In this document: piece after piece, positions 23,666 through 38,174 of the stretch
Layout: each line of letters opens with the position of its first letter
How positions within the stretch are numbered: position 1 is the first letter of the stretch
Source of the DNA: Lacticaseibacillus camelliae DSM 22697 = JCM 13995
GTDB lineage: Bacteria > Bacillota > Bacilli > Lactobacillales > Lactobacillaceae
DNA: 64,000 nt
NCBI RefSeq assembly: GCF_001311195.1
Contig: NZ_BBAJ01000003.1
Location: forward strand, 1-64,000
Direction of reading: 5' to 3'
Notes under the pieces: generated by a model
What the model was told of the DNA's origin: nothing
What the model saw: the letters and a program-made list of their open reading frames with translations, nothing else
Databases searched by the model: none
Translations under genes and position numbers: made by a program

Positions 23666-25489
23666 ATGCAAAGTATTTCATTACTCGTCGTCCTGTTTGC
23701 GGCGCTGCTCACACCGCTTCTGATGGCCAAGTTCAACATTCACAGTCTTCCCACCGCGGTCGCCGAAATCATCGTCGGCATCATTTTGGGCAAGAGCCTG
23801 CTGGGCTGGGTCATCAGCAATGACGTGCTTGAAGAGCTGCGCACCCTAGGCGTCATTGTCCTGATTTTCCTATCCGGGATGGAGATCGATTTTTCGCTGT
23901 TCAAACCCCAAAAGCACCGCGACGGTAAAATCGCGTCGCACCGCTCGCCTTTTTGAGTTACGGCAGCATTGTCGTCATGGCGCTGCTTGTCGCCTGGGTG
24001 CTCGACCTGATTGGCTATATTCGCACATCGTGTTCGCGGCCATTATCTTTGCCACCGTCGCGCTAGGCGTCGTCATCGCCGCACTGAAGGAAAAGGAGCT
24101 CCTGAGCAAGCCCTTTGGCCAAACCATGTTACTGCTGGCGGCGCTGGGCGAAGTCCTGCCGCTGATTGCCCTGACGGTTTACCAGAACATCAACGGAACG
24201 TCTTCGCGCAGCGTCTGGCTGCTCCTGCTAATTTTCTTGGCGGCCATCTTCCTGCTGCTGCGGTTCCGCAAGCCTTACCAATGGTTTGCGGAAATTGATA
24301 AAAGCACCACGCAGCTGGACATTCGCCTCGCCTTTTTTTTCTGATCGTGACACTGGTCACCATCGCCGAGTCCGTCGGCGCCGAGAACATCCTGGGCGCC
24401 TTTCTCGCCGGCATGGTCATGAAGCTGCTGCGGCCGCGCGAGGAAACCGAAGACAAACTGACCAGCATCGGCTACGGCTTCTTCATCCCCATTTTCTTCA
24501 TCATGACCGGCGCCAACATGAACCTGCGCGCGATGTTCAAAGACCCTGCAAGCCTGGCGCTGATCCCAGTGCTGCTGGTCGGCTTTTTCGCCGCCAAGGC
24601 GCTGCTCCTGCCGCTGCTATTGACCCGTTTTCGCAAGCACAACGCGCTTGCCGGCACACTTCTGACCTCGACCACGATCACGTTGGTCATTCCGGCACTG
24701 TCGGTGGGCAAAAGCCTCGGCATCATCAGCAGTACCCAAAGCGCCGCTTTCACGCTGGCCGCTGTCATCACCTGTATCGTCAGTCCGATCCTGTTTAATA
24801 CCTTCTACGTTGCGGAAAAAGATGACATCAAAAAGACGCGTGTCCACATCATCGGTGCTAATCTCATGACGGTGCCAATCGTTCAGCAGCTCTCCAAAGG
24901 CTTGTATGACGTGCAGCTTTACACAGATGACCCCGTCAAGTTCAAGACTTATAACTCCGAGGCGCCGGTCACGCTGTTGAGCGACGTGACCGCACCGACA
25001 CTGCAAGCTGCTGAGGTGTTTGACGCCGATATCATCGTTCTCGCGCATTTTGATGAGGACAAAAATTTTGCGGTCGCGGAACTCGCGCTGGCCGCCAAGG
25101 TCCCACGTATCATCGCCCGTTTTGACGCCAAAAACGCCACCGATGCGCGCTATGACGAACTCGCGGCCCAAGGCGTCGAAGTCTACAACACGTTTGAGAC
25201 CAACATCGCGATGCTGCGCAGCCTGATTGAAACCCCATCGACCCTGAAGATCCTGCAGGATACCACGGCCGGGATTTTCGAAATTGTTGTCAACAACCGG
25301 CGCTTTGCCGGCTTGGAGGTCAAGAACCTGCCATACGTCAACGACATCACCATCAGCCAGATCTTCCGCGGGGACCACTTTATCGCCCCGCACGGCGACA
25401 CCCAGCTGCATCTGGGCGATCACATTATTTTCTCCGGCGACAAGGCGCAAATCGGCCAGATGCGGGCCGAATTCGAAAAGGTCAACTAG
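23666..25489 (+). CDS. KefB/CPA2-type cation:proton antiporter with TrkA domain, three frameshifts
   Basis: About 607 residues when repaired. Twelve to thirteen membrane helices (LTPLLMAKFNIHSLP, GMEIDFSLF) are followed by a TrkA-N domain (about 390-500, RVHIIGANLMTVPIVQQL) and a TrkA-C domain at the end (ITISQIFRGDHFIAPHGDT). Exchanges K+ or Na+ for protons, gated by nucleotide or ligand. Breaks: A lost at about 23929 (DGKNRVAPLAFLSYG), C lost at about 24024 (GYIPHIVFAAI), and T lost in the T8 run at 24323-24330. ATG 23666 after GGAGGTCCGCC. Confidence 0.88.
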
Positions 25490-31703: not shown

Positions 31704-33512
31704 TCAGTCCGTGGCGATATCTTTTTGGATGACGATGCGTTCATATAGCCACACCGTCAGAATATAGTAGATGGCGTACAGTAAGATGAACAGTCCAAAT
31801 GGCAGGGCCAGGTGCGCGTATGGTTCCTGCAGCAGCCCAACGAACATCTTCAATCCAAACAGCACGTGGATCACACCAAGCAGGCCGGGGAACAAGAACA
31901 GCGCCCCGATTTCCTGCCGCACGGATTTGCGCAGCAGGCCTGGCCGCACCCCAATCTTTTGCAGCATCAAGTACCGGCTTTGATCGTAAGACGCACCGCT
32001 GAGGATCTTGAACATCAGCGTCGACGCGAGCATCGCCAGGAACGCAATGCCAAGGAAGAAGCCCATGAACGCCATGCCCGAGAAGGCCCCGTTGATCATG
32101 TCGTAATAAGTAAATTTCTGGCCGTAAACGGCGCTGCTTTGCTTACCGTACTGCGCAATAATCGCCTTGTTCAGCGCCGCCAACTGATCATAATTGGCCG
32201 TGAAATCATCCAATCGCCAGGTGTGTGCCGTGGCGACCGGACTGTCCAGCTTGGCAAACGCCGAGGCGCTCAGGACAGCAGGCTGCTTGCCTGCGACTTG
32301 CTTGGTCATAAACTGATCAAACTGACTCTCGTAATCACCGGCCTCCTTGGCAAAGTTCGCGCCGGTAACTTTGGTGTATTGCACTGGGCCGCGACCGTAC
32401 TGTGCAAACAGCAGTGGGTGCTGATCCAGCTCGGCGGCATTAAAGTAGATGTGCTTTTTGTCCTGTTTGAGGTGGTAGTTGACCTGTGCCTTGACCCCGG
32501 TCAGCCGCTTGGCCTTGGCCAGCGTGGCCGCGTTGGGATCCACCACCACGGCATCGTAGCCATTCTGCTTGGAAGCCAGGTCCGGAATGTCATGCTCGAA
32601 TCCCAGCCCCACGGTAATGGCCCCAAGCGCCAGCGCAAAGAGGATTGATACCACTGCCAGGATCCGCGTGTAGTCACGAATGCGAAAGCTCAGCTGACTC
32701 AGCGTGAAGGTGTGCAGTCCCTTGGCCGCAAAGCGCTTGTTTTTTTTCAGCAGTCCAATTAGCCAAACCAGCAGAGAATTGAACAGAAAGTACGAACCCA
32801 GCACAATCGCGACGAGTGCGATGGCAATGCCCGCCAGTACCAGCTTGGCCAGCTGACTCATCGCCCAATAGCCAATCGCCAGCAGCACCACCGCCAAGAC
32901 CGCCTGAACTCCAAGCACCCACTTCTTCGTCTTGAGCCGGTTCGGCGTCGTCGCCGCGTGCAAGAGGTCTAGCAGCGGCGTTTTGAGCAGATTGTGCGCA
33001 TTGATCAGCGCCCCGACCACAAACATGAGTAGGAAAAAGACAAACGTCCACAGAATCGCCGGTGGCCAAACGACCGAAAAGTGCGTTGCCGGCGCGTGCA
33101 GCTGAGCCATCAGCACGTGCCCGGCCACGCCGGTCAGGCCCATGCCGACCAGAATTCCGGCCACGGCAGCCAGCACGCCAACCGTCACGGTTTCAATGAA
33201 GATCAGCTGGGCAATTTTGCGACTCTTGGCGCCCAGCATCATGAACATGGCGTAATCGCGCTGGCGCATGCTCATCAGAAAACTGTTGGCGTAGACGATG
33301 TACACCGTCGTGATGATCACGAGCAGAATCTCACCAAAGCCAAAAATGAACGAGGTCATCCCCACCATGGTGTTGGCGGTCAGAAACGCCTTGTTGGTCG
33401 CGAGGCTGAGAAACATGTAGAACACGGCGCTGCCGATCACCAGTCCGGAGAACAGGACCGCGTAATCGCGAAAGCGGGAACGAATCCCGCCGAGAGCTAA
33501 TTTGCGTAACAT
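31704..33512 (-). CDS. BceB-like ABC transporter permease
   Basis: 602 residues, intact. Ten membrane helices are predicted: four near the N-terminus, two around 200-260 and 280-310, and the last four after about 480. A large external domain of roughly 170 residues lies between them (about 315-480), the region that recognises peptide antibiotics in BceB proteins. SRFRDYAVLFSGLVIGSAVFYMF and SFLMSMRQRDYAMFMMLGAKSRKIA are typical of the family. It pairs with the ATPase 12 bases upstream. No two-component system is adjacent, so the substrate remains a guess. Confidence 0.88.
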   Translation of the reverse strand: MLRKLALGGIRSRFRDYAVLFSGLVIGSAVFYMFLSLATNKAFLTANTMVGMTSFIFGFGEILLVIITTVYIVYANSFLMSMRQRDYAMFMMLGAKSRKIAQLIFIETVTVGVLAAVAGILVGMGLTGVAGHVLMAQLHAPATHFSVVWPPAILWTFVFFLLMFVVGALINAHNLLKTPLLDLLHAATTPNRLKTKKWVLGVQAVLAVVLLAIGYWAMSQLAKLVLAGIAIALVAIVLGSYFLFNSLLVWLIGLLKKNKRFAAKGLHTFTLSQLSFRIRDYTRILAVVSILFALALGAITVGLGFEHDIPDLASKQNGYDAVVVDPNAATLAKAKRLTGVKAQVNYHLKQDKKHIYFNAAELDQHPLLFAQYGRGPVQYTKVTGANFAKEAGDYESQFDQFMTKQVAGKQPAVLSASAFAKLDSPVATAHTWRLDDFTANYDQLAALNKAIIAQYGKQSSAVYGQKFTYYDMINGAFSGMAFMGFFLGIAFLAMLASTLMFKILSGASYDQSRYLMLQKIGVRPGLLRKSVRQEIGALFLFPGLLGVIHVLFGLKMFVGLLQEPYAHLALPFGLFILLYAIYYILTVWLYERIVIQKDIATD

Positions 33513-33524
33513 CTTCCCGCCTCC

Positions 33525-34283
33525 TTACTGCTGGAATGTGCCCAGGGTCGTCAAAATCTCTTGGTAGAACTGCTCTTGCGTCTTTTCGCCGTGCACCAGC
33601 TCCTGGCCGATCTGGCCATCCTTAATGAACAGGATGCGCTTGGCGTAACTTGCCGAAAACGGATCGTGGGTGACCAACAAAATTGAGACGTGCTGCTGCT
33701 CGTTCAGCTGCGCCATCGTGTTCAGCAGCTCCCGGGCGGACTGGGAGTCCAAGGCCCCGGTCGGCTCGTCGCCAAACAGGATCGCCGGCTGCTGCACCAA
33801 GGCGCGAGCGGCCGCGACGCGCTGCTTTTGACCGCCGGACAGCTCTGTTGGGTAGTGGTCGAGCACAGCATCGATGCCCAAAGTCTGGGCGATTCGGGTC
33901 ACGGCTGCCTGCTGCTGCGCACTTTTGACGTTCTGCAGCGCCATCGGCAGGGCGATGTTTTCGCGCGCCGTCAGGTTCTCAAGCAGGTTGAAATCCTGAA
34001 AAATGAACCCGACCCGCTTGGCCCGAAAATCGGACAGCTGGTTACCTCGCAGCGCGGTGACGTCCTGGCCGTTGATCGCGACGCTGCCGGAGGTTGGCCG
34101 GTCCAGCGTGCTTAAAATGTTCAGCAGCGTGGTTTTCCCAGAGCCGCTGGCCCCCATGATGCCGACAAATTCACCGGGCTGTACATCAAACGTGATGCCT
34201 TTCAAGGCCTGGTACTGCTTTTCGCCGCGCTTACCATAAGTTTTGGTGACATCCTTAACGCTGACGACTGGTTGCTCTGCCAT
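33525..34283 (-). CDS. BceA-like ABC transporter ATPase
   Basis: 252 residues, intact. Walker A GASGSGKTTLL, Q-loop FIFQDFNLL, signature LSGGQKQRVA, Walker B AILFGDEPTGALD and switch His in LLVTHDPF. It energises the permease that follows; MacB/Bce-type exporters move or shield peptide antibiotics. ATG after GGAGGAATCAAC. Confidence 0.93.
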   Translation of the reverse strand: MAEQPVVSVKDVTKTYGKRGEKQYQALKGITFDVQPGEFVGIMGASGSGKTTLLNILSTLDRPTSGSVAINGQDVTALRGNQLSDFRAKRVGFIFQDFNLLENLTARENIALPMALQNVKSAQQQAAVTRIAQTLGIDAVLDHYPTELSGGQKQRVAAARALVQQPAILFGDEPTGALDSQSARELLNTMAQLNEQQHVSILLVTHDPFSASYAKRILFIKDGQIGQELVHGEKTQEQFYQEILTTLGTFQQ

Positions 34284-34373: not shown

Positions 34374-34527
34374 GCCGAACGCTAACAACTCTGTAAGTTG
34401 CTTAACCATTTCTCAACATATTTTCTGAAATGGCCTAGAATTTTCTGAAAAGTCGGCTAGAATTAATCAATAGTGTCATAAGTAAACTATGCGCCAGTAC
34501 CGCACAGTGCACGTGAGGAGAGTGGTC

Positions 34528-34575
34528 ATGGCTCGCAACAAAGCCCCCGGCCCTCAGCTTGTCGAACGTTACTGA
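34528..34575 (+). CDS. Leader peptide MARNKAPGPQLVERY before APC permease 1
   Basis: A 15-codon ORF with its own GAGGAG site seven bases upstream. Its RNKAPG core recurs in the leader peptide of the neighbouring paralogous permease with synonymous codon changes (CGC/AGA, AAC/AAT, CCC/CCG), a sign of selection on the peptide. Its stop codon overlaps the 3' arm of the hairpin that masks the permease ribosome binding site. Likely a cis-acting regulatory peptide. Confidence 0.7.
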   Translation: MARNKAPGPQLVERY

Positions 34576-34586
34576 CAACTGAGGAG
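34552..34586 (+). promoter_or_regulatory. Hairpin sequestering the ribosome binding site of APC permease 1
   Basis: CCTCAG-C-TTGTC (34552-34563) pairs with GACAA-CTGAGG (34574-34584): 11 base pairs with a single bulged C and a ten-base loop. The 3' arm includes GAGG of the permease site GAGGAG (34581-34586). The 5' arm is codons 9-12 of the leader peptide, so a ribosome stalled after PGP would open it. Confidence 0.7.
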
Positions 34587-34593
34587 TAATCAT

Positions 34594-36244
34594 ATGAATA
34601 ATGAATTAGACGAAAAAAAATCATTACATTCCGTGGTTCATCATTGCGCTGATGGACTTCGTCACCGTTATTGGCTTTGACGATATTATTTATAATTTCC
34701 GTAATCAGGGGCTGGTCGCCCTTTTCACTTGGGTGCTGATGACGTTCTTTTACGTCATCCCGTACAACCTAATCGTCGCGCACATGGGGTCGACCTTCTC
34801 TGACGAAGGCGGCGGCATCACGTCCTGGATGCGCCGGACCAATGGCGACACGGTCGGCTACTTTGCCGGCTGGTTCTACTGGATCACGGAACTGCCTTAC
34901 GTCGTGGATGTGGCCAATTCAGTCATCATTTCCGCCGGCTGGATCCTCAACGGCGACGGCAACATCCAGTCCCACATGGGGAACGCGTGGTTCGGAATTC
35001 TGTCCGCCTTCGTGTTCGTCGTCTTCATCTGGCTCGAGCACCTGTTCAAGAACAAGTCGCTGGAGGTCATGTCCACCATCGGCGGCATCGCGATGTTCGG
35101 GATGACGGTGATGTTTGTCATCATGACGTTCGTCGGCCTGAAACAGGGCCGGCCGATTGCCACGCACCCGTTCAACCTGCAGGCGTTCATGCCCAAGCAC
35201 TTCTGGTCCTTCCGCTTTCTTTCCACGTTCGGCCTGTTCGTCTTCGCGATGAACGGTTCGGAAATGGCAGCCCCTTACACGGGCAACATGAAACACCCGA
35301 GCCGCGATTTTCCCAAGTCCCTGAAAATGATCGCCATCATGACCATGTTCCTGACCCTGTTTGGCACCTTCAGTCTGGGCGTTTACTTTAATGCTCACCA
35401 CCTGCCAAACGACCTCAAAATGAACGGGAACTACTACGCGTTTCAGCTGATTGGCCACCAGTTCGGTCTGGGCAACACACTGCTCTACACCTTCACAGTC
35501 ACGCAGCTGCTGTACGACCTGGCGCAACTGGCCATTCTGCTGGACGGCTCGACCCGAATCTTCCTGGCCGACGTGAACAAGCGCTTCCTGCCCAAGCAGT
35601 TGACTAAGAAGAACAGTGACGGCCTGCCGATCAACGGCTACTGGCTGACCACCGCGATTTGCGGCGTCATTATGGCCCTGGGCGGCCTGCTGCCGAAGAT
35701 CAACGACATCTTCAACTGGCTGCTGGATCTGAACGGCATCGTGTCACCGTTTGCGACTTGCTTCCTGTTCTGGGCGTTCATGATGCTGCGGCGGCACTCC
35801 GACCGGTTTAAAACGCCGGAGTACACCTACATCAAATCTGACAAGCTCGCCTTCTTGGTCGGCCTGTGGATGTTCAGTGTCACATTCATCCTAGCGGTCA
35901 TGGGCTTTTTCCCGACCGACTCTGATCCCAAAACCTTTGCGACCATGCTAACGTTGAACTTTGCAGTGCCGGCCGGCATGATCATCCTCGGCTTCATGAT
36001 GCCCTGGCTCACTAAGCGGCAACAAGACCGCGGCACTGCGTTCGGCGTGCGCGGCTGGCAGATCATCACCATCCTGCTCGCCATTGGGGCCGTGGGCGCG
36101 GTCAGCTATGGCATCGACGTGCGGCTGTTTGCCGGACTTGCGACCCTGCCTAAGCTGGGGTTGGTCATCGTCGCCGACCTTGTGGCAGTCGGCTTGGTCC
36201 TTTTGATCACGCGCAACGGGCGCAAAGGCGTTTCCGCCGCCTAA
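34594..36244 (+). CDS. APC-superfamily amino acid permease 1
   Basis: About 550 residues and twelve membrane helices, like glutamate:GABA antiporter-type APC members. Landmarks are FVTVIGFDDIIYNFRNQGL, GGGITSWMRRTNGDTVGYFAGWFYWITELPY, and FVFAMNGSEMAAPYTGNMK. The ATG at 34594 is seven bases from GAGGAG, but one extra A in the A8 run at 34613-34620 puts MNNELDEK out of frame with HYIPWFIIALMDFV. The paralogue at 36527 has the same kind of break at the same place. Probably sequencing slips, though transcriptional slippage is possible. Substrate unknown. Confidence 0.87.
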
Positions 36245-36461
36245 ACCTGCACATTCATGCAACCCCTCAAGGGCACGCCGCCAATCGACAGCGTGCTCTT
36301 TTTGCGTTGACTTCAAGTATGACCAGACCATTTTTCAGCAGTCTGAGCCATTAGCGGACACTCGGAAGCCCGATAAACCACACACGTAATTTTGGGTGTT
36401 TACTGAAAACTAATATAGGGTAAAATGGGTAAGACAAAATTGTCTGACTTGGAGGAGCCCT

Positions 36462-36491
36462 ATGCGTAGAAATAAAGCCCCGGGCCTTTGA
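36462..36491 (+). CDS. Leader peptide MRRNKAPGL before APC permease 2
   Basis: Nine codons after a strong TTGGAGGAG site. It shares RNKAPG with the first leader. The stop codon falls inside the 5' arm of the hairpin that covers the permease ribosome binding site. Confidence 0.7.
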   Translation: MRRNKAPGL

Positions 36492-36522
36492 GCGCTGACC
36501 GCACACTGTCACACTCGGAGGA
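36485..36522 (+). promoter_or_regulatory. Hairpin sequestering the ribosome binding site of APC permease 2
   Basis: CCTTTGAG (36485-36492) can pair with CTCGGAGG (36514-36521) using two G-U pairs, with an inner TGAC/GTCA stem (36496-36499 with 36508-36511). The 3' arm contains the permease site CGGAGGA; the 5' arm is the end of the leader ORF. Same design as permease 1 with different bases. Confidence 0.6.
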
Positions 36523-36526
36523 TAAA

Positions 36527-38174
36527 ATGGATACTAAAGACAAAAAAAGAATACATTCCATGGGTCATTGTTGGCCTAATGGATTTCGTTACGGTCATCG
36601 GCTTCGACGACATCATTTATAACTTTCAGAATCAAGGACTCGTCGCCGTCACCTCATGGGTGCTGATGACGTTTCTGTACGTGCTGCCCTATAACCTGAT
36701 TGTGGCGCACATGGGCTCGACCTTCGCGGAACGCGGCGGCGGCATCACCTCATGGATGCGTGAGACCAACGGCGACACGGTCGGCTACTACGCCGCCTGG
36801 TTCTACTGGATCACCGGCCTGCCTTACGTCGTGGACGTGGCCAACTCAGTGGTCATCTCGCTGGGCTGGATCATCACCGGTAACGGCAACATTCAGGCCC
36901 ACCTCGGCAACGCCTGGTTCGGCATCACCACCGCCGCGATTTTCGTGGTCTTCATCTGGATTCAGCACCTGTTTAAGAACAAGTCGCTGGAAGTCATGTC
37001 GACCATTGGCGGCGGCGCCATGTTCATCATGACCGTACTGTTTGTGGTGATGACCTTTGTCGGTCTGGCCAAAGGCAACCCGATCGCCACCCACCCGTTC
37101 AACTTCAAGGCCTTTTTGCCGAAGGACTTCTTCTCGCTGGGCTTCCTGTCCACATTCGGCCTGTTCGTCTTCGCGATGAACGGCTCGGAACTCGCCGCGC
37201 CGTACACCGCGGACATGAAGCACCCGGCCAAGGATTTCCCCAAGGCCTTGAAAATGATTGCCATCATGACCATGTTTCTGACCCTGCTCGGCACATTCTC
37301 CCTGGGCGTGTACTTCAATGCCCACAAGCTGCCGAATGACCTGAAGATGAACGGCTCCTACTACGCCTTTCTGCGCATCGGCGAGCAGTTCGGCCTGGGC
37401 AAGAGTCTGATGTACCTGTTCGCCGGCGTGCAAGGCATTTACATGCTCGCCCAGCTGGCCGTCATCCTGGACGCGTCAACTCGCGTGTTTCTGTCCGATG
37501 TCGCGAAGCGCTTCATGCCGCGACAGCTCACGAAAAAGAACAGCGACGGCCTCCCAATCAACGGCTACTGGATGACCACCATCCTCTGCGCCTTGATCAT
37601 GGCGCTGGGCGGCCTGCTGCCCAAGATCAACGACATCTTCAACTGGCTGCTCAACCTGAACGGTATCGTCTCCCCGGCTTCCACCTGCTTCCTGTTCTGG
37701 GCCTACCTCATGGTCCGGATTCACCCGGAACGCTTCCCGAAGCCGAGTTACACGTACCTGAAAAACCGCCACGTGGCGATTTTCGTCGGTGCTTGGATGC
37801 TCGGCATCACGGCGCTGCTCGCGCTGCTTGGCTTCTTCCCAACCGACGCCACCGCTGATACCTTCGCGTTGCAGCTGGCGATGAACATCATCGTCCCAAT
37901 CGGCATGGTCGTGCTCGGCTTCATGATGCCGTGGATCGCGAAACGGCAGCAAAGCGGCAACGCGTTTAAACCGGCGACCTGGAACCTGATCACCATTGTG
38001 ACAGACGTTGCACTGATTGCCTTAGTCAGCTACGGCTTGGCCACCAGCATTTTGGCAAGCGCACCGAACGTGCTTAAGTGGGGCGTCATCCTCGTCATTG
38101 ACGTCATCATGGTTGCCGTCACCTTGTCAGCGACCCGCAACGGCCGTCACGGCATCGTCACTGAAGAGAATTAA
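36527..38174 (+). CDS. APC-superfamily amino acid permease 2
   Basis: About 549 residues, a close paralogue of the gene just upstream (same FVTVIGFDDIIYNF, GDTVGYYAAWFYWITGLPY, NGSELAAPYTADMK and SDGLPINGYW landmarks), so the pair arose by tandem duplication. Differences cluster around helix 8 and the C-terminus. The ATG at 36527 follows CGGAGGA; an extra A in the A7 run at 36542-36548 separates MDTKDKK from EYIPWVIVGLMDFV. It ends before a strong terminator. Substrate unknown. Confidence 0.87.

Follow-up and report, generated by a model that had tools for sequence, protein, structure and literature searches.

Leader peptides with an Asn-Lys-x-Pro core precede APC permease genes in Lactobacillaceae and may act as translational attenuators

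In a 64,000 nucleotide (nt) stretch of Lacticaseibacillus camelliae DSM 22697 (RefSeq contig NZ_BBAJ01000003.1; positions 1 to 64,000; hereafter the window), two tandem genes for APC permeases are each preceded by a short open reading frame (ORF) that encodes a peptide with the core RNKAPG. The locus raises the question of whether these peptides belong to a conserved family of leaders that control translation of the permease genes, as had been proposed in a sequence-only reading of the window. Short ORFs with the more general core N-[K/N]-[A/P/S/G/E]-P (hereafter NKxP) were found upstream of related permeases in several genera of the Lactobacillaceae, where the leader is selected as a peptide and the RNA from its core onward pairs locus-specifically with the Shine-Dalgarno (SD) sequence of the permease gene, suggesting that the leaders are parts of translational attenuators.

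Leader ORFs upstream of the two permease genes

Both leader ORFs and their own strong ribosome-binding sites are present as first described, and both cores were recovered by a pattern search. The features, all on the forward strand, are as follows.

34515 to 34520 (+), SD of leader 1, GAGGAG (sequence)
34528 to 34575 (+), leader ORF 1, MARNKAPGPQLVERY followed by a TGA stop (sequence; counterparts in L034 and L035)
34534 to 34551 (+), RNKAPG core of leader 1, Pro codon at 34546-34548 (pattern search, codon statistics)
34552 to 34563 (+), 5' arm of leader 1, CCTCAGCTTGTC, predicted to pair with the permease 1 SD region (duplex computation)
34574 to 34586 (+), 3' arm, GACAACTGAGG, with the permease 1 SD GAGGAG at 34581-34586 (duplex computation)
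34594 to 36244 (+), APC permease 1 (AA_permease_2; distantly YjeM/GadC-like), frame broken in an A8 run at 34613-34620
36451 to 36457 (+), SD of leader 2, GGAGGAG (sequence)
36462 to 36491 (+), leader ORF 2, MRRNKAPGL followed by a TGA stop (sequence, pattern search)
36468 to 36485 (+), RNKAPG core of leader 2, Pro codon at 36480-36482 (pattern search, codon statistics)
36485 to 36492 (+), 5' arm of leader 2, CCTTTGAG, predicted to pair with the permease 2 SD region (duplex computation)
36514 to 36521 (+), 3' arm, CTCGGAGG, including the permease 2 SD GGAGG (duplex computation)
36527 to 38174 (+), APC permease 2, frame broken in an A7 run at 36542-36548

The core is encoded by CGC AAC AAA GCC CCC GGC in leader 1 and by AGA AAT AAA GCC CCG GGC in leader 2, and the codons thus bear out the synonymous changes at Arg, Asn and Pro that had been pointed out. 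The proposed pairings between the leader end and the permease SD were also recovered, as CCTCAG-c-TTGTC with GACAA-CTGAGG in copy 1 and between the two arms listed above in copy 2.

The two permeases share 69% identity and both match the family AA_permease_2 (APC); their NCBIfam matches to YjeM and GadC were weak and far under the cut-off. The window belongs to a draft Lacticaseibacillus assembly of 161 contigs (84.51% complete, 5.89% contaminated). The nearest named relative found was L. hegangensis, with a permease 1 that is 98% identical, and the DNA of the permease region in genome G018 is ~79-90% identical to that of the window within aligned pieces. The counterpart of leader 1 is MARNKAPGPQFAERH in L. 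hegangensis (L034) and MTHNKAPGPQLVANC in L. jixianensis (L035), and the leader 2 peptide is identical in G018/L. hegangensis.

Conservation of the leader in related Lactobacillaceae

Permease relatives were gathered from 60 near genomes, from contigs of GTDB species (15 loci) and from 397 genomes of the family (among the matches listed), and the upstream DNA was read at 114 distinct permease starts of related Lactobacillaceae, a subset of the matches. A leader was counted where a short ORF with the NKxP core lay no more than 250 nt upstream of the permease. Such an ORF was found at 52 of the 114 loci, and at 39 of the 45 where the permease was at least 60% identical.

In a maximum-likelihood tree of 58 full-length permeases, one clade (support 100/98) holds the leader in 36 of its 42 members. 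This clade spans Lacticaseibacillus, Schleiferilactobacillus (RNKPPG), Loigolactobacillus (KNKSPG and QNNPP) and genome G062 (HNKPPC), and over the whole tree leader presence required 8 label changes, compared with 15.6 when the labels were shuffled. The leaders are thus associated with a permease family. In three genomes with tandem permeases (L036, L040 and L037), the first copy has the leader motif and the second does not.

More remote relatives, in genus g31, have leaders with RNKGPG, RNKEPG or RNKAPG. Four remote permeases (L149, L123, L155 and L157) are preceded by short ORFs that have an SD and contain NPPP or KPPN, and these are perhaps distant versions of the NKxP leader. Leaders with [N/K]PP occurred at 4 of the 62 loci lacking NKxP against a mean of 0.1 in shuffled sequences, for a pattern that was chosen after looking.

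A stricter RNKAPG-type pattern gave 49 matches in the 397 family genomes, 21 of them before permeases of this family, as judged by position. None of the 16 that were examined among the other 28 had a start codon preceded by an SD, and most lay over long frames, on the other strand or in another frame. Outside the genus, a reversed control pattern matched more often than the real one, indicating that matches there are expected by chance.

Selection on the leader peptide

When a start codon and four or more matching SD bases were demanded, a motif ORF was present in 43 of the 114 upstream regions; 60 dinucleotide shuffles yielded 0.20 on average and never more than 2. For codon and pairing statistics, the 52 loci were reduced to 42 non-redundant ones by leaving out L011/L038 and L080, which have no in-frame permease SD, and 8 that were more than 80% alike another locus.

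In these 42 leaders, the first two bases of the N and P codons showed no entropy, and the third base had 1.0 bits for N and 1.9 bits for P. The K/N codon likewise varies only in its third base, and leaders of the NKAP type (22/42) use all four Ala codons (GCA, GCC, GCG and GCT). As the first two codon positions are fixed while third positions vary, the leader is selected at the peptide level, and the earlier claim to that effect, made from two copies, extends to the related leaders.

The residue before Pro is A in 22 leaders, P in 14, S in 4 and G and E in one each, and the residue after it is G in 24, C in 6, S in 4, I in 3, A and T in 2 each and L in 1. From two residues past Pro onward the sequence is unconstrained, and the stress laid on 'PGP' in leader 1 does not carry over to the family, the residue after Gly being free among related leaders. 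The peptides are 9-31 residues long with Pro at residue 7-16, and end anywhere from 2 to 19 residues past it. The leader SD matches at least 4 bases in 36 of the 42.

Pairing of the leader RNA with the permease SD

For each of the 42 loci, the duplex energy between the segment from the core to +48 and the SD region was computed for the locus's own pair and for swapped pairs. Own pairs had a mean of -11.8 kcal/mol, compared with -8.4 for swapped pairs (z = -10.7; 20,000 permutations), and masking the SD left z = -7.7 from the flanking arms. The two arms therefore match in a locus-specific manner. The segment upstream of the core gave z = +1.0 (42 loci), and loci without the motif gave z = -1.1 (55 loci). 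The window duplexes reached -12.5 kcal/mol in copy 1 and -11.8 in copy 2, against means of -8.7 and -8.8 with the SDs of the other 41 loci. The sequence-only reading had named missing conservation of the leader peptide or hairpin among relatives as one outcome that would speak against it, and this outcome did not occur.

Counted from the first base of the Pro codon, the 5' arm starts no later than +15 in 41 of the 42 loci, a position covered by a ribosome that has Pro in its P site. The distance from the Pro codon to the SD is 33-44 nt in 28 of the 42, a spacing that would allow one ribosome to pause while another initiates. A run of at least five T residues was found between core and SD in 7 of the 42 loci and in neither window copy, in a count of T-runs rather than a scan for terminators.

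In a folding model in which a 31-nt ribosome footprint was blocked, placing the footprint at Pro raised the median probability that the SD is unpaired from 0.27 to 0.40 (42 loci; Wilcoxon p = 1.2e-4), whereas with the footprint at the leader start codon it was 0.26. The modelled value rose from 0.29 to 0.57 in window copy 1 and from 0.08 to 0.64 in copy 2.

Translational attenuation and alternative explanations

A peptide-selected leader and an arm matched to the SD of its own permease gene make up the anatomy of an attenuator, and in this respect the sequence-only reading stands, its emphasis on PGP aside. On balance, each permease mRNA probably carries a translational attenuator in which a pause at the invariant Pro of the leader frees the permease SD. 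When no ribosome is paused, the SD would be held paired with the stretch that begins at the leader core. A ribosome translating the leader is predicted to slow or arrest when N-[K/N]-[A/P/S/G/E]-P forms the end of the growing chain; the P site would then be occupied by the invariant Pro and the A site usually by Gly, at times by Cys, Ser, Ala or Thr. The paused ribosome would cover the 5' arm, leaving the SD free and allowing the permease to be translated. The pause, its site and the direction of control are what we infer here.

As the chain is only 7-16 residues long at Pro, the signal is expected to be read at the peptidyl transferase centre or in the upper tunnel. Candidate signals should therefore include a small molecule, EF-P and the status of Pro- or Gly-tRNA, and not membrane insertion of the nascent chain; sensing of force or insertion outside the tunnel is unlikely. 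The evidence gathered indicated no particular signal, be it the amino acid, polyamine or antibiotic put forward in the sequence-only reading or another.

Several observations weigh against this reading. Among the 45 close permeases, the second copies of L036, L040 and L037 (=L009/L037) as well as L028 and L030 have no leader, and L025 has only a variant, HNKSSP. The leader SD matches just 3 bases in 6 of the 42 loci. The invariance of N, [K/N] and P is partly by construction because the search motif fixes them; this does not apply to the count of 39 in 45 or to the variation at third positions. When the leader segment was paired with permease codons 2-8, z was -2.0 (p = 0.03; 40 loci), showing that some background locus specificity exists. 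The 5' arm placement was the same in 87.6% of 1722 swapped pairs and is weak evidence, because a core rich in C can pair with whichever SD it is given. The modelled switch is only partial, as the Pro footprint raised SD accessibility by more than 0.2 in 16 of the 42 loci, lowered it by more than 0.2 in 3, and brought it above 0.5 in 14 alone. Finally, in many loci a ribosome at the leader stop exposed or covered the SD as well or better.

An alternative source of the pause is an X-P-(P/G) context, such that the permease would answer to EF-P activity or to the supply of prolyl-tRNA. Two adjacent Pro residues occur in 14 of the 42 leaders and the four outgroup leaders contain NPPP or KPPN, but the commonest type, NKAP, has a single Pro in its core. 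The conserved Asn and Lys upstream of Pro also speak against such a sensor, as EF-P dependence is not known to require them; nor is there a run of Pro codons of the kind found in starvation attenuators. In E. coli MG1655, yjeM immediately follows epmA, which encodes the EF-P lysyltransferase (4382643 to 4385341; L166), though E. coli YjeM is only a distant homologue. A sensor of this kind is unlikely.

In plain translational coupling, translation of the leader and its termination would melt the hairpin for the next ribosome, whatever the peptide sequence. This finds support in the folding model, where a ribosome at the leader stop gave an SD value of 0.98 in copy 1, where the footprint overlaps the SD, and of 0.43 in copy 2. 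Coupling needs no core, however, whereas here the amino acids N, K and P persist despite third-base changes, with the residues free from two past Pro onward, and the scattered stop positions also speak against it. As the peptide is constrained, pausing that depends on the nascent chain is favoured, and coupling is unlikely to be the explanation.

It is quite improbable that the leaders are drug-inducible attenuators like those of erm and cat genes, in which a ribosome-targeting antibiotic or bacteriocin stalls a short chain. The chain has ~7-12 residues when the core is reached, as is usual for drug-dependent leaders, and R-N-K resembles the macrolide +X+ motif, but its R is present in only 21 of the 42 leaders, whereas the Pro beyond it is kept. 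An FtsX-type ABC permease and ATPase, a pair that we take to resemble Bce-type resistance transporters, is divergent from the permease in several genomes; the gene downstream of the leader is nevertheless an amino acid permease (AA_permease_2), not a resistance gene.

That the conserved element is an RNA signal, an anti-SD with a binding site in which the reading frame is incidental, is very improbable: although the GCNCC within the core can itself pair with GGAGG/GGAGC and swapped pairs tend to use it too, the codons for N, K, A, P and G are free in their third positions, every counted motif lies behind a start codon with the SD matches given above, and a search of the window against Rfam at the gathering threshold found no family except rli28 (542-730).

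Comparison with known arrest peptides and attenuators

Arrest peptides of the RAPP/RAPG type include ApcA, ApdA and ApdP, and the literature describes an 'RQH family' with the motif (R/Q/H)-(A/G/D)-(P/G/S)-(P/G) (PMC7897499, PMC10987492, PMC10951233, PMC12992588). According to PMC12992588, RAPP-type stalling occurs with the third motif residue in the P site. Before Pro, ApdA and ApdP tolerate G fully and S, D and P partly, and ApdP also V and E; 19 of 19 substitutions failed to replace the Arg of RAPP, and the Ala of ApcA (RAPG) likewise tolerated no change. The same paper reports RAPP/RGPP upstream ORFs to be absent from many Gram-positives, including Bacillota. In ApcA-like upstream ORFs, RAP precedes G, S, A, T, C or other residues (PMC10987492), and the structural account of RAPP rests on contacts of the Arg (PMC10951233).

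The NKxP leaders resemble this type in lying upstream of the gene they would regulate and in their X-P core. The residues found before Pro (A, P, S, G and E) overlap the substitutions that ApdA and ApdP tolerate fully or partly, and the residue after it is G, C, S, A or T in 38 of the 42 leaders, kinds that are listed for the RAP-x motifs clustering with ApcA. The differences are several. The position of Arg, Gln or His is taken by Lys in 36 of the 42 and by Asn in 6, the search motif having allowed only these two, and a further conserved Asn stands ahead of it. Judged by their length, the NKxP leaders could not accommodate an N-terminal signal sequence with its linker and long soluble part, and they precede an amino acid permease gene. 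At the remaining positions of the motif the fit is mixed, with a strict A/G/D second position in 23 of the 42, Pro in all 42 (fixed by the search motif) and Pro or Gly at the last position in 24.

On this comparison, Lys could only partly replace the contacts of the RAPP Arg, and the NKxP leader may function in the manner of a RAPP arrest peptide while standing outside that family. Rather tentatively, N-K-x-P-(G/C) could be a new minimal arrest motif that acts in a chain of 7-16 residues with no signal sequence and with Asn-Lys replacing the RAPP Arg, and the leaders could then be a sensor family that ties the amino acid exchange of lactic acid bacteria to the state of the peptidyl transferase centre.

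Leaders of erm and cat genes (ErmCL, ErmBL and Cat86) are likewise short, with an SD of their own and an anti-SD pairing. Such leaders also have a stall site placed to disrupt the hairpin; the predicted NKxP stall site overlaps the 5' arm, as it does in most swapped pairs too. Both anatomical features are seen here, the short ORF with its own SD at 52 of 114 loci (a match of at least 4 bases in 36/42) and the sequestration of the downstream SD by an arm in or after the leader in the own versus swapped comparison (z = -10.7). The NKxP leaders differ in their peptide core, in having a metabolic transporter and no resistance gene downstream, in having no known inducing drug, and in occurring at orthologous permeases of several genera and not on mobile resistance genes. 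The amino-acid-sensing leaders TnaC, SpeFL and MgtL also precede transporter or metabolic genes, whereas the NKxP chain is shorter at the core, has no regulatory codon run and involves pairing with the SD. Starvation attenuators of the his and trp type have a run of codons for the amino acid that they respond to, whereas the NKxP core has one or two Pro and the leaders share no repeated residue.

In the open PMC literature, RNKAPG, NKAPG or RNKPPG occurs in 8 papers, none of which has a title on leader peptides, and wider topic searches showed none either (subscription papers and preprints lay outside this coverage).

Frame breaks in the window and neighbouring genes

Read from the ATG near the SD (34594 and 36527), both permease frames of the window break within ~8 codons, in the A8 and A7 runs listed above, a point that the sequence-only reading had missed. 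Each run is one base longer than the frame requires, and both permease copies are in frame in L. hegangensis. For 104 of the 114 permeases compared, an SD of 4 or more bases precedes a start codon in frame; both window copies are among the 10 without, and the other 8 simply have no such SD by the same test. A second gene of the window is also broken, at 23900-24340; it encodes a membrane protein that reads as antiporter-like, and has two breaks, one of them in a T8 run near 24333. Its counterpart in G018 is an intact ORF of 607 amino acids. As the L. hegangensis permeases are in frame and this second gene is broken while its G018 counterpart is intact, the breaks in the A-runs are probably homopolymer errors of sequencing or assembly, real strain variation being the alternative. 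A programmed +1 frameshift at both permease starts was considered and rejected, as L. hegangensis is in frame twice, 104 of 114 permeases have in-frame starts and another window gene is broken as well.

In the window, the FtsX-type ABC permease and ATPase genes lie at 31704 to 34283 on the reverse strand, divergent from permease 1, and the same arrangement is present in Loigolactobacillus jiayinensis (L045). The flanking genes (this ABC permease/ATPase pair, a lipid kinase, HflX and, in L041, an MgsA/RarA-type ATPase) gave no hint of the substrate. For E. coli yjeM, one report describes suppression of a threonine-uptake defect by the gene in multicopy (PMC12003319), and another only proposes Glu/GABA transport (PMC9909107). 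Elsewhere in the window, a match to rli28, a Listeria small RNA family, scored above the gathering threshold at 542 to 730 on the reverse strand.

Significance

If the proposed attenuation is correct, it would add a compact and conserved translational switch to those of lactic acid bacteria. The leaders would also provide a natural test of the minimum nascent chain needed for ribosome arrest, and would offer a handle on the substrate and control of the YjeM-like permease family.

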